Part shown: in pieces, positions 2,970 through 6,278 of the stretch
Layout: the number at the start of each line of letters is the position of its first letter
Position numbering within the stretch: position 1 is the stretch's first letter
Source: Clostridia bacterium
Lineage (GTDB): Bacteria > Bacillota_A > Clostridia > Christensenellales > UBA1242
Direction: 5' to 3'
Assembly: GCA_017466005.1 (NCBI GenBank)
Contig: JAFTUZ010000048.1
Span: 1 to 6,389 of the forward strand
DNA length: 6,389 bases
The notes under the pieces: model-generated
What the model was told of the DNA's origin: nothing
The model's database searches: none
Seen by the model: the letters and a program-made list of their open reading frames with translations, nothing else
Program-made: the position numbers and the translations under genes

Positions 2970-3242
2970 ATGTTTTATAGCGAACTTGTAAAAAAACTTG
3001 GTATAGAAGAAACGGTAAGTTCTTTTTATAGTGTTAATTTTGCAAATACTGGTTTATCTATTCAGGGTAACGTAAAAATAATTTTGTTTAGTGCTACAAA
3101 AATAGTTTTAAAATATGGTAAACAAACTTTGTATATTTATGGCAATAATTTAAAACTTAACAACCTAAGCAAAACCGAAATTGGAATAAAAGGAACAATA
3201 ATTTGTACAAGTTCGGTGGAGGTGAGTATTGGGCAAGATTAA
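2970..3242 (+). CDS. yqfC: Sporulation protein YqfC (YabP/YqfC family)
   Basis: A 90-residue soluble protein with no signal peptide or membrane segment. Its pattern fits the YabP/YqfC family: a short N-terminal helix (SELVKKLGIEETV), then a run of beta strands (LSIQGNVKIILFSATKIVL, TLYIYGNNLKLNNLS, EIGIKGTIICTSSVEV). The length matches Bacillus YqfC, just over 90 residues. In Bacillus the gene is expressed in the mother cell under sigma-E; the biochemical role is not known. ATG 2970 follows AAGGGGG at 2958-2964. The last 14 bases overlap yqfD in another frame, and the ribosome binding site of yqfD lies inside this gene, so the two are probably translationally coupled. The identification rests on family pattern plus the yqfD neighbour, which together are strong. 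Confidence 0.85.
   Translation: MFYSELVKKLGIEETVSSFYSVNFANTGLSIQGNVKIILFSATKIVLKYGKQTLYIYGNNLKLNNLSKTEIGIKGTIICTSSVEVSIGQD
3218..3231 (+). promoter_or_regulatory. Ribosome binding site and TTG start of yqfD
   Basis: GGAGGTG (3218-3224) lies inside the 3' end of yqfC, with GGAGG six bases before the TTG at 3229. This strong Shine-Dalgarno sequence decides the TTG start: the yqfD frame has no ATG or GTG nearby, and the protein then begins GKINWYGKVTF, as expected for the N-terminus of the family. Confidence 0.75.
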
Positions 3243-4368
3243 TTGGTATGGCAAAGTTACATTTGTAATAGAAGGTGCAAATTTTGTTTTACTTTTAAAC
3301 GAATTAAACAAGCAAAATATACAAGTTTTTTCTGCCAACAGAATTAGTGCTACTAAATTAGAATTTTGCGTAAGTGGTAAATATGTTGCAAAGGTAGTTG
3401 CTTTACTTAAAGATAAATGTTATACTGTATTGCAAGAAAAAGGTTCGGGATTGGTTAAATTAACAAATTCTTTTACAGCTAGGTGGGGGATTTTGGTTGG
3501 TGGTTTAGTGGGCTTTTTTCTGTGTGTTTTTTCTACAATGTTTGTTTGGAATGTTAATGTTGTAGATGATAAAAGTTTGCTTTATAACAATATGTGTAAA
3601 GTGCTTGCCGAAAACGGAATGGGAAAAGGCTCGTTTTTACCTAGTTATGATTGTAATAAGGCAGAAATTTTGTTGCTTGAAAATATTGAAAACTTAAGTT
3701 TGGTTTCTGTTTCTACCAGGGGTGGTAGTTTGCTTATTAACTACACAACAAAAACTACAGCAACAGAAATAGAAGAAGATTTTCAGGTTAAAAACATTGT
3801 TGCAAAGCAAGATGCTGTTATTGCAAGTATAGTTGTTTCTAGTGGAACGGCACTGGTTAAAGAAGGCGATGTTGTAAAACAAGGTCAAATTTTAATTGCT
3901 GGCTATAAAGAAAATGAAGAAGGGGAAAAAGTAGAGTGTTTTGCTAGTGGTTATGTTAATGGTTATGTTTTTAAAAGCGTAACAACACAATTTCCGATAA
4001 ATAAAATTGAATATGTAAGAACGGAAGAATTTGTTGTGCATAACAAACTTTATTTGGGCGATACTTTAATACACGAAATTATTCCACAACATAATTTTGA
4101 GCATTTTGAAACAGAGCAAACAGTTAGTTATATTTCAAATATTATTCCACTAAAACAAGAAACTACAAAAATTTATAAAACAGAAGGTGTGGAAGTTAGG
4201 CAAAGTTTTGAAGAGCAAAAACAAAACGTTATAGACCAAACAAGAATGCTTGCGTTAGAGCAATGTAATAACACAGATAATATAATAAACGAAAGTGTTG
4301 CTACAAACTTTGTTGCAGATATTTGGTTTGTAACTTACACAATAAAAATAAAGGAAAAAATAAGTTGA
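3229..4368 (+). CDS. yqfD: Sporulation membrane protein YqfD
   Basis: A 379-residue membrane protein of the YqfD family (usual length about 390-400), linked to the mother-cell stage of sporulation; its molecular function is not known. The N-terminal soluble part (about 1-85) resembles the family start and is followed by one transmembrane helix at about 86-108 (WGILVGGLVGFFLCVFSTMF) and a large domain presumed to lie across the membrane. Inside it, NIVAKQDAVIASIVVSSGTA and EGDVVKQGQILIAGY (189-226) form the hallmark lipoyl-like hairpin also found in secretion adaptor proteins. The C-terminal third is rich in Glu, Lys and Thr and less diagnostic. It starts with TTG inside the end of yqfC, and its TGA stop (4366-4368) overlaps the TTG start of ybeY, so yqfC, yqfD and ybeY form one coupled unit. 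phoH, which normally follows yqfD in Bacillota, is missing. Confidence 0.9.
   Translation: MGKINWYGKVTFVIEGANFVLLLNELNKQNIQVFSANRISATKLEFCVSGKYVAKVVALLKDKCYTVLQEKGSGLVKLTNSFTARWGILVGGLVGFFLCVFSTMFVWNVNVVDDKSLLYNNMCKVLAENGMGKGSFLPSYDCNKAEILLLENIENLSLVSVSTRGGSLLINYTTKTTATEIEEDFQVKNIVAKQDAVIASIVVSSGTALVKEGDVVKQGQILIAGYKENEEGEKVECFASGYVNGYVFKSVTTQFPINKIEYVRTEEFVVHNKLYLGDTLIHEIIPQHNFEHFETEQTVSYISNIIPLKQETTKIYKTEGVEVRQSFEEQKQNVIDQTRMLALEQCNNTDNIINESVATNFVADIWFVTYTIKIKEKIS
4351..4367 (+). promoter_or_regulatory. Ribosome binding site and TTG start of ybeY
   Basis: AAGGAA (4351-4356) stands eight bases before TTG 4365-4367, which overlaps the yqfD stop in the arrangement TTGA. This site decides the start: an upstream in-frame TTG at 4323 would add 14 basic, Asn-rich residues (VCNLHNKNKGKNK) not expected in YbeY and has no Shine-Dalgarno sequence. 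Confidence 0.75.
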
Positions 4369-4862
4369 AAGTTACCATACAATTAATTAATCAAACAGAA
4401 GAAAATTTGTTAGATTGTAAAGATTTAAAAAAAATTGCCAAAAATGCCCTTTTGGTTTGTAATCAAAAAAAGGCAAAAGTTAGTTTGAGTGTATTTTATG
4501 TTAATGAAGATAAAATACAAGAGATTAATAAAGATTATAGAAATAAAGATAAGGCAACAGATGTTATTTCTTTTAGAATGATAGATAACCCTGATAATTT
4601 TGTTTTATGCAAAAAGAATTTTCCTGTGGATTGGGATTATGCAGATAAATGTCTTTATATTGGCGAAATTTTTATTTGTAAACAAGTGGCTGAAAAGCAA
4701 GCGGAAGAATGGAAGCATAGTTTGAACCGAGAAGTGGCAGAGTTATTTGCGCACGGAATGTTGCATCTTTTAGGGCACGACCACGAAGAAGAGCAGGAAC
4801 GCCAAAAAATGAAAGAAAAAGAAGTTTTGATTTGCAAAAAGTTAGACAAATTTGTTTTGTGA
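4365..4862 (+). CDS. ybeY: rRNA maturation endoribonuclease YbeY
   Basis: A zinc-dependent single-strand endoribonuclease of the UPF0054 family, needed for 16S rRNA 3'-end maturation and ribosome quality control in the cytoplasm. With the TTG start it has 165 residues, within the normal 150-170. The metal site is complete: HGMLHLLGHDH (130-140) gives the three ligands H130, H134 and H140. The second family signature, YRNKDKATDVISF (58-70), includes the conserved arginine R59, and YIGEIFIC (98-105) corresponds to the conserved GDI strand. The start overlaps the yqfD stop, and the gap to the cdd-like gene is only seven bases. In most Bacillota phoH and pgpH lie just upstream and dgkA just downstream; here all three are absent. 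No anomaly is visible in the protein. Confidence 0.95.
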   Translation: MKVTIQLINQTEENLLDCKDLKKIAKNALLVCNQKKAKVSLSVFYVNEDKIQEINKDYRNKDKATDVISFRMIDNPDNFVLCKKNFPVDWDYADKCLYIGEIFICKQVAEKQAEEWKHSLNREVAELFAHGMLHLLGHDHEEEQERQKMKEKEVLICKKLDKFVL

Positions 4863-4869
4863 GGTTATA

Positions 4870-5262
4870 ATGGAAGAAACTGTTGTTCAAAAGTTAATTG
4901 AAAAAGCAAAAGATTGCGTACAAAATGCGTATTGTCCTTATTCAACATTGCCAGTAGGTGCGTGTGTGCTTACTCAAAACGGAATGTTGTTTGGTGGGTG
5001 TAATATAGAAAATGTGGCGTTTGAATGTTGCTGTGGTGCAAGTGAAGTTGCACTTTTAAAAGCGGTTAGTGAAGGTTGTACAAACATAACCGCACTTGCA
5101 ATTTATTGTGAAGATGAAATGCCACTACCATCGGGTAAAGAAAGGCAGTTATTGCGTGAGTTTTCTAGTAGAGCAACAGTAATTTGTGCTAGCAAAACAG
5201 AAACATTACAGTTTGGTATAAACGAGTTATTGCCTTTTCCAAAAGAGCAATCAGATATATAG
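4870..5262 (+). CDS. cdd: Cytidine deaminase homologue lacking the zinc site (probable pseudoenzyme)
   Basis: An intact 130-residue protein of the small, tetrameric cytidine deaminase family, whose active members deaminate cytidine and deoxycytidine in pyrimidine salvage. Family features are clear: AYCPYSTLPVGA (20-31), the nucleoside-binding GCNIEN (43-48, with N45 and E47), ALLKAVSEG (61-69), RQLLREF (92-98) and the end ELLPFPK. The catalytic motifs are replaced. The family CAE box reads GAS at 56-58, so zinc ligand C53 of B. subtilis becomes G56 and the catalytic E55 becomes S58. The PCGAC box reads PSGKE at 87-91, so C86 and C89 become S88 and E91. It should bind no catalytic zinc and probably has no deaminase activity. 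There is no frameshift or internal stop, and conserved stretches flank both changes. ATG 4870 follows GAGG (4861-4864). An upstream in-frame TTG at 4852 would overlap ybeY and is rejected. The cdd symbol marks homology and locus, not activity. Confidence 0.85.
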   Translation: MEETVVQKLIEKAKDCVQNAYCPYSTLPVGACVLTQNGMLFGGCNIENVAFECCCGASEVALLKAVSEGCTNITALAIYCEDEMPLPSGKERQLLREFSSRATVICASKTETLQFGINELLPFPKEQSDI

Positions 5263-5267
5263 ATTTA

Positions 5268-5349
5268 GGGGGCAAAAGCAACTTTCACTTGCGAAAGTTT
5301 AAACGCCCCGCCGGGGCGTTTTGCAAACCCTGTTTGCGCTTTTGCCCCC
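5268..5349. repeat. 82-base GC-rich four-way-junction palindrome
   Basis: A perfect 12-bp outer stem pairs 5268-5279 (GGGGGCAAAAGC) with 5338-5349 (GCTTTTGCCCCC) and encloses three perfect hairpins. Hairpin 1: AACTTTC (5280-5286) with GAAAGTT (5293-5299), six-base loop. Hairpin 2: AAACGCCCC (5301-5309) with GGGGCGTTT (5313-5321), loop GCC. Hairpin 3: GCAAAC (5323-5328) with GTTTGC (5332-5337), loop CCT. Only single T residues (5300, 5322) separate the hairpins. By hand count 46 of 82 bases are G or C, far above the surroundings. The fold could be a structured RNA, a small palindromic mobile repeat (REP or MITE-like) or a complex terminator; hairpin 2 is followed by four T (5319-5322, three of them in its own stem). 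It is not a tRNA: the anticodon loop and CCA-side features are absent. It begins five bases after the cdd-like gene and ends 35 bases before era. Confidence 0.8.
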
Positions 5350-5373: not shown

Positions 5374-5387
5374 AAGGAGAAAATATG
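5374..5387 (+). promoter_or_regulatory. Ribosome binding site and ATG start of era
   Basis: AAGGAG (5374-5379) lies five bases before ATG 5385. A possible -10 (TAAAAT, 5358-5363) precedes it, but only a weak -35 (TTGCGC, 5334-5339, 18-base spacer) can be paired with it, and this falls within the right side of the palindromic element. I therefore do not call a promoter. Confidence 0.7.
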
Positions 5388-6278
5388 AGTTTTCGTTCAG
5401 GCTTTATAGCAGTTGTTGGTAAACCAAATGTAGGTAAATCTACTTTAATAAATGCTTTAATTGGTAAAAAAGTATCTATTGTTTCACCAAAACCACAAAC
5501 AACCAGAAATAAAATTTTAGGTGTACTATCTACAAAAGAATATCAAGCAGTTTTTGTAGATACACCAGGCATACATAAATCTAAAACCGAACTTGACCAA
5601 TATATGCAAAAAAATATAGATACCGCCACCCAAGATGTAGATTTGATAATTTATGTGATGGACGGTAGCCATAATTTTGCTGAAGATGACCTTGACACTT
5701 TAAAAAAATATTGCAATGGTAAAATTCCAGTTTTTGCTGTGGTAAATAAAATGGATTTAAGTTCGCCGGAAGCTGTTTTTCCAAGATTAAGTGTTTTAAA
5801 TGATATAAAAGGTTTAGAGCAGATTTTTTGCATATCTGCACTTCAAAAAAAGAATTTAGAACCTTTGCTTAATGCTAGTTTGGAAAAATTGTCTGATAAT
5901 GTTAAATATTTTCCAGATGACGTTATTACCGATAAAGGTATGGGGTTTACTATTGCCGAATTAGTGCGTGAAAAAATTTTGTGGCATATAAACGATGAAA
6001 TCCCACACGGTGTTGGTGTTGTGGTAGAGCAAATAGTAAGTAATCCAAACACCGAAGTTATAACCGCCACAATATATTGTGAACGTGAGGGGCATAAAAG
6101 TATTATAATAGGTGCCAAAGGTGCAAAAATAAAAGAAATTGGACAAGAATGCAGACTTGCATTAGAAAAAATGCTTGATAAAAAAGTCAGCCTAGAGTTG
6201 TGGGTTAAAGTAAAAGCAAATTGGCGTAACCGAGAAGGCCTTTTAAGTGAAATAGGTTATGCAACAGAAGAAGAATAA
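5385..6278 (+). CDS. era: GTPase Era
   Basis: An essential-type GTPase that binds the 3' end of 16S rRNA and guides 30S subunit maturation; it acts on the ribosome and in part at the membrane. The 297 residues match the usual length of about 300. The GTPase domain is complete: G1 GKPNVGKS (12-19), the Era-typical PKPQTTRNKILG (35-46) holding the switch I threonine region, G3 DTPGIHK (59-65), G4 NKMD (121-124) and G5 SAL (151-153). The C-terminal KH domain follows from about 205, with IIIGAKGAKIKEIG (240-253) carrying the GxxG loop, and ends with LWVKVKANWRN near 280. In most Bacillota era directly follows or overlaps cdd; here 122 bases with the four-way palindrome separate them, so era may be transcribed apart from the yqfC unit. 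It works in the same process as YbeY. No odd residues are seen. Confidence 0.97.
   Translation: MSFRSGFIAVVGKPNVGKSTLINALIGKKVSIVSPKPQTTRNKILGVLSTKEYQAVFVDTPGIHKSKTELDQYMQKNIDTATQDVDLIIYVMDGSHNFAEDDLDTLKKYCNGKIPVFAVVNKMDLSSPEAVFPRLSVLNDIKGLEQIFCISALQKKNLEPLLNASLEKLSDNVKYFPDDVITDKGMGFTIAELVREKILWHINDEIPHGVGVVVEQIVSNPNTEVITATIYCEREGHKSIIIGAKGAKIKEIGQECRLALEKMLDKKVSLELWVKVKANWRNREGLLSEIGYATEEE

Follow-up and report, generated by a model that had tools for sequence, protein, structure and literature searches.

The window, i.e. the whole stretch of 6,389 nucleotides analyzed here, encodes a homologue of cytidine deaminase (Cdd) that has lost its three zinc cysteines and its catalytic glutamate. 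In agreement with the original prediction, a maintained pseudoenzyme, and not gene decay, is well supported by the existence of a zinc-less family in which the catalytic residues are lost across a clade, by purifying selection, by the retention of ribose-binding residues, and by a confident Cdd fold. Judging from comparative sequence data, the cdd of this operon was probably made zinc-free and catalytically dead in place, in an ancestor of the lineage, and was selected for a non-catalytic job. A well-kept Cdd that is stripped of its catalytic residues and lies beside ribosome-maturation genes suggests a second, non-enzymatic job.

The zinc-less Cdd homologue of the window

The gene order of the window is valS, yqfC-like, yqfD, ybeY, pseudo-cdd, and era, with the 3' end of ybeY 7 nt upstream of pseudo-cdd (Table 1). 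The pseudo-cdd product is a single domain encoded by one short ORF, with no second active domain. It contains the Pfam deaminase domains PF00383 and PF08211, matches the NCBIfam model NF004064 at 93 bits (cut-off 74, E 1.5e-26), matches TIGR01354 at 90.6 bits, under the cut-off of 113.65, and matches PDB chains with E-values down to 3.5e-22. Homology to Cdd is far above chance. Structure prediction, which had been proposed as a check, returned a confident Cdd fold.

Table 1. Features of the window discussed in the text (positions are those of the window).
Feature	Position	Strand	Basis and remarks
yqfC/YabP-like gene	2970..3242	+	PF07873
yqfD, 5' of ybeY	3229..4368	+	PF06898; synteny
ybeY (16S rRNA maturation RNase)	4323..4862	+	PF02130/TIGR00043; HGMLHLLGHDH motif intact; listed start is a mechanical TTG within yqfD, and the true start may be further in
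pseudo-cdd (zinc-less Cdd homologue), 130 aa	4870..5262	+	ORF/translation (start ATG 4870, stop TAG 5262), Pfam, NCBIfam, fold
NIEN, residues 45-48	5002..5013	+	N45/E47 are the retained counterparts of ribose-binding Asn42/Glu44
GASEVA, residues 56-61	5035..5052	+	occupies the C-A-E-R-T-A site of intact Cdds; first zinc Cys, catalytic Glu, and Arg all missing
KAVSEG, residues 64-69	5059..5076	+	S67/E68 better conserved in zinc-less than in intact Cdds
PSGKERQ, residues 87-93	5128..5148	+	occupies the P-C-x-x-C-R-Q site; second and third zinc Cys gone
era (ribosome-assembly GTPase)	5385..6278	+	NF000908, 342 bits

Both active-site motifs of the window protein align without gaps to solved Cdds in HMMER, where a CNCAERTA-type box reads CCGASEVA and a PCGACRQ-type box reads PSGKERQ. 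The alignment bears out the predicted replacement of the zinc cysteines (C53>G56, C86>S88, and C89>E91) and of the catalytic glutamate (E55>S58), and reveals a further substitution, R56>E59, that the original prediction did not include. The NIEN, VGA, KAVSEG, and RQLLREF motifs are all present as described. Furthermore, L27 occupies the aromatic position 24, where 85 of 91 intact sequences have F or Y.

An error of assembly is a very unlikely cause of the motif changes, since 29 other genomes and more than 100 protein clusters show like changes. The protein does contain the ten cysteines counted earlier, for which a metal or redox role had been considered. That role is not supported and was dropped because C53-C54-C55 is not conserved: in two zinc-less groups position 53 is cysteine in 19% and 32% of sequences, position 54 is mostly Ser, and position 55 is mostly L, F or A.

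Distribution and annotation of the zinc-less family

A single-sequence search recovered 64 relatives of the window protein, and a genome scan recovered 10 loci in records of uncultured Clostridia, Clostridiales and, once, Christensenella, two of them from deer gut. The profile search yielded 167 proteins, 105 of which, including that of the window, lack all four catalytic residues (P0020, P0150, and P0153 among the 105 are without part of a motif), while 59 keep all four and 3 keep one. Among the last, P0149 retains only the last zinc cysteine and P0115 and P0125 only the first; these are possibly intermediates or independent losses.

The taxonomic family of genome G001 was surveyed in a sample of 197 genomes and then in 309. 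Zinc-less proteins scored 154-201 bits and others at most 116 in this family. A zinc-less protein was found in 29 of the 309 genomes, with the motif read in each of the 29, and was not seen in the other 280. The assemblies of the 29 genomes measure 0.7-1.4 Mb.

Many relatives carry the precomputed Pfam label PF26947, and several relatives carry the source annotation "cytidine deaminase". Four zinc-less or nearly zinc-less proteins were scanned with NF004064; the cut-off of 74 was passed by the window protein and by P0149 (108.8) and missed by P0107 (73.8) and P0093 (51.6). Zinc-less proteins can thus pass the cytidine deaminase cut-off of this model, which calls for caution in annotation. A search of the literature by title or abstract opening, in which subscription journals are thinly covered, found no report of an inactive bacterial Cdd.

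Conservation and selection

Conservation was examined in 84 non-redundant zinc-less sequences (128 reduced by an 85% identity filter), a set that was collected with zinc-less queries and carries no information on their frequency. The ribose-binding Asn is present in 83/84 and the Glu in 84/84, and A57 is present in all 84. Two residues of the KAVSEG motif are more frequent in zinc-less than in intact sequences, namely S67 (83/84 versus 59/91) and E68 (78/84 versus 40/91). At the former zinc positions the commonest residues are G/S/D/E, S/T/N, and E/T/V, respectively. Most sequences carry G, V or M in place of the catalytic Glu and V, T or I at position 24, and E or D replaces Arg56 in 69/84.

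According to the accessible part of a study of a related, tetrameric CDA (PMC9897663), docking has Asn42 and Glu44 form hydrogen bonds to the ribose and puts residue 24 in contact with the base side, mutants with two or three zinc cysteines changed to His are fully inactive, and activity is lost in 10 mM EDTA. Because the Asn/Glu pair is kept while the zinc ligands, the catalytic Glu, and position 24 have changed, the zinc-less proteins would hence retain a ribose pocket with altered chemistry and base recognition.

Homologue collection and dN/dS estimation, also proposed as a check, indicated strong purifying selection and not near-neutral change in the computable pairs. NG86 gave dN/dS of 0.016-0.092 for 7 of 14 zinc-less pairs, the other 7 being saturated (e.g. 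dN/dS was 0.131/1.73 for the window and L001, and 0.049/1.047 for L075 and L077). These ratios are rough because dS exceeds 1 in all 7 finite pairs and some pairs have a common member; YN00 yielded values for 2 of the 14. Intact Cdd pairs gave dN/dS of about 0.06-0.20 in 7/8. Though rough, the values do not fit neutral drift.

Phylogeny and origin

A tree of 72 rows chosen by hand was built without the active-site columns and has few columns. According to this tree, 26 of 27 zinc-less rows form one clade (98/84), the sister of which comprises the intact P0155 and P0159 together with P0149; the loss in P0149 may be separate from that of the main zinc-less clade. The zinc-less clade is itself nested in a 46-row clade (98/98), in which the intact rows with known context, P0155 and P0159 left aside, are Cdds beside ybeY and era in 17/17 cases. 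It is from the tree that the last intact stage before loss of the active site would be read. Similar grouping was observed in a wider, midpoint-rooted quick tree of 90 hand-chosen rows, likewise with few columns, where 39 of 40 zinc-less rows grouped (SH-aLRT 87), with P0155, P0159, and the locus Cdd L173 nearest; under the midpoint root, 1 of 20 locus rows fell with the zinc-less clade and 19 on the opposite side. A single main origin among the Cdds linked to ybeY and era has the support of the 72-row tree.

At the level of the order, 396 genomes were scanned, 144 of which had a match at E 1e-25, and motifs were read in G001 and at the 29 next-best loci. All 29 next-best loci were intact and 26 of them were flanked by ybeY and era. 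Of 70 ybeY loci examined in the order, a set that shares some genomes with the previous one, 20 had a Cdd beside ybeY, intact in 20/20 cases and with era beyond in 19. The intact Cdds of the order reach 148 bits, just under the lowest zinc-less score of 154. Since the locus Cdds examined in the order are intact and no intact Cdd of the family was found close to ybeY or era, the cdd of this slot was most likely stripped of its active site at its original position, with the intact Cdds of sister genomes lying elsewhere.

Genomic context

The zinc-less loci surveyed comprise that of the window and 29 others. ybeY lies upstream at 30/30, within 133 nt at 29 and at about 1.1 kb in L083, and H-x3-H-x5-H is kept in all 30 YbeYs. 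era lies downstream at 18 of the 27 loci with enough sequence to judge and was not found at the other 9, each of which has 1 kb or more of downstream sequence (the remaining three, L001, L006, and L067, have less than 600 nt); the downstream ORFs in L002, L008, L072, and L083 are unlike era. Within the family, ybeY is near 39/39 zinc-less rows (20 of these rows being paired copies of 10 loci), and neither ybeY nor era was found near an intact Cdd in any of 73 rows within the limits used, some of these loci ending early.

The persistence of ybeY as a neighbour after era leaves would favor YbeY over Era as a partner. In the accessible text of one report, Era and intact Cdd of S. aureus did not interact in two assays (PMC6738653). 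The zinc-less protein is not indispensable for YbeY, because 280 of 309 family genomes show none and ybeY and era abut directly at 8/8 family loci without the zinc-less gene. The predicted tie to the ribosome-maturation genes is favored so far as synteny goes; conserved gene order may reflect inheritance, not function. As described in parts of PMC10582724 and PMC6738653, cdd is a frequent neighbour of era and ybeY, and the Era review (PMC10582724) counts the meaning of the link between cdd and era among the unanswered questions.

Fused genes were also observed. YbeY and intact Cdd share one stop-to-stop frame in L152 (1105-2022), L201 (2587-3495), L237 (1456-2484), L238 (1489-2424), and L240 (1468-2412), apparently YbeY-Cdd fusions within the order and a hint of a link between the two proteins. 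YbeY and Era lie in single open frames in L150, L160, L162, L196, and L209, a fusion type that has already been described (PMC10582724). The accessible portion of the same review names YbeY-Era and RNase III-Era fusions and does not mention YbeY-Cdd.

Nucleoside metabolism of the zinc-less genomes

A Cdd above the TIGR01354 cut-off was found in 0/29 zinc-less genomes versus 39/168 of the other sampled genomes. These relatives therefore lend no support to the earlier suggestion that the protein pairs with an active Cdd encoded at another locus, and this candidate was rejected. At E 1e-4, further TIGR01354 matches occur in G019 (two) and G055 (two) only; the one that was read, the weaker match L091 of G055, has an intact site. 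All 29 zinc-less genomes have a PF00383 match, some having just dCMP-deaminase-like or other family members. The weak matches L021-L024 (in G003, G004, G009, and G010) are ORFs for deaminases in which the CAE and PCxxC boxes are intact; they hit ComEB and an anti-phage dCTP deaminase model, under both cut-offs, and are called dCMP-deaminase-like on this basis.

Pyrimidine-nucleoside phosphorylase (TIGR02644, E 1e-10) was found in 0/29 zinc-less versus 26/29 intact-Cdd genomes, uncorrected for kinship, the latter being the best-scoring 29 of the 39 above the Cdd cut-off; 11 of the 26 matches reach the model's own cut-off. Conversely, dCMP-deaminase-like matches were counted in 23/29 zinc-less versus 4/29 intact-Cdd genomes, again uncorrected for kinship and judged by eye from a match span of at least 339 nt, with four ORFs read as sequence. 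Taken together, the contrasts for TIGR01354, TIGR02644, and dCMP-deaminase-like matches, uncorrected for kinship or for incomplete assemblies, suggest a loss of nucleoside breakdown that preceded or accompanied that of deamination.

Comparison with known systems

The window protein resembles the B. subtilis type of Cdd (TIGR01354, NF004064/PRK05578) in fold, length, ribose Asn/Glu, and the ybeY/era slot, and differs from the tetrameric zinc Cdds in lacking the zinc cysteines, the catalytic Glu, and the aromatic residue at position 24, and in having an acid for Arg56. The C-terminal domain of E. coli Cdd is zinc-free and is fused to an active domain in the same chain, and ADAT3 retains its zinc ligands without the Glu. 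The former is likewise derived from Cdd and lacks zinc, whereas the window protein is free-standing and not joined to an active domain. The likeness to ADAT3 is that of a deaminase-fold protein without catalysis that is maintained by selection; however, ADAT3 pairs with the catalytic ADAT2, and the 29 zinc-less genomes show no Cdd above the cut-off. ADAT3 serves as the structural subunit of the eukaryotic tRNA deaminase (in part after PMC7713142). The literature on YbeY-Era association and fusion (PMC10582724, PMC6738653) describes the same neighbourhood as in the window and, in its accessible parts, does not mention an inactive version of Cdd.

Proposed function and alternative explanations

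In the preferred reading, a cdd between ybeY and era would have lost its zinc ligands and catalytic Glu in the ancestor of the lineage, and catalysis may have become dispensable once pyrimidine-nucleoside breakdown was lost. The resulting pseudo-Cdd presumably continues to form oligomers and to bind a ribose-bearing ligand in its former pocket, and base recognition has probably changed with the loss of the aromatic residue at position 24. The weakest step, plausible but tentative, is that it serves YbeY as a ligand-responsive or structural subunit in the maturation of 16S rRNA; such a role would be the most economical reason for the protein staying in its slot. It is unlikely that the Cdd of ybeY-era operons also takes part, without catalysis, in maturing the 3' end of 16S rRNA, with the ribose pocket sensing a nucleoside or the rRNA 3'-terminal nucleoside and gating YbeY or Era. 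If true, the loss of pyrimidine-nucleoside breakdown in this lineage would have left this second role alone and would reveal why cdd travels with era.

A dead Cdd could instead be a nucleoside or nucleotide sensor unconnected with the ribosome, which would recognise a ribose-bearing metabolite and control some metabolic target, its proximity to ybeY being inherited only. Retention of the ribose Asn/Glu would suit such a sensor, the slot position can be inherited because intact Cdds occupy the same slot in related groups, and part of the Era review describes era as often neighboured by other metabolic genes (PMC10582724). This explanation is nevertheless rather doubtful, as adjacency to ybeY outlives the departure of era, the protein has no known regulatory domain or target, and pocket positions 24 and 48 drift. 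It is improbable that the protein is a repurposed enzyme that runs a new reaction in the old pocket through the acidic E59/E91, whether metal-independent or with another metal. Consistent with such an enzyme, an acid replaces Arg56 in 69/84 zinc-less sequences and E91 stands for Cys89 in 31/84, but a common new active site should be invariant, and the two zinc-less groups differ at 56, 58, and 88 as well as at 91 (E versus mostly T/V).

Still less probable is a role like that of ADAT3, as structural partner to an active deaminase within the same cell. Residues of neighbouring subunits do line the pocket in tetrameric Cdd, according to part of PMC9897663, and every zinc-less genome has some PF00383 protein, although these are in part dCMP-deaminase-like or other members alone; against this stand the 0/29 genomes with a Cdd above the TIGR01354 cut-off and the restriction of further matches, of which L091 was read as intact, to G019 and G055. 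A decaying gene whose frame happens to have stayed open, or a spacer that serves translational coupling of ybeY and era, is hardly credible. The close spacing to ybeY, and often to era, would fit a spacer, but none is necessary because ybeY and era abut directly at 8/8 family loci without the gene, and the low dN/dS of seven pairs and the near-invariant residues in 84 diverse sequences are at odds with decay. With respect to the preferred pseudoenzyme, its loss of catalytic residues and its kept slot beside ybeY make a non-catalytic role of Cdd directly testable, because the residues were removed naturally and the protein was retained.

Intergenic element between pseudo-cdd and era

A cloverleaf-like, three-armed inverted repeat, consisting of an outer stem and three hairpins, is located at positions 5268-5349 of the window (MFE -49.7 kcal/mol, z -7.15) and had no match in Rfam. 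By eye, no such element is present in L066, and a copy search with the L001 element sequence found only weak pieces elsewhere. At the same position L001 has the same architecture with other arm sequences (z -7.0), and G001 C21:8905-8987 (L248) has the same outer stem with three arms by eye. The element is possibly a repeat or mobile element, the arms of which change while pairing is kept.
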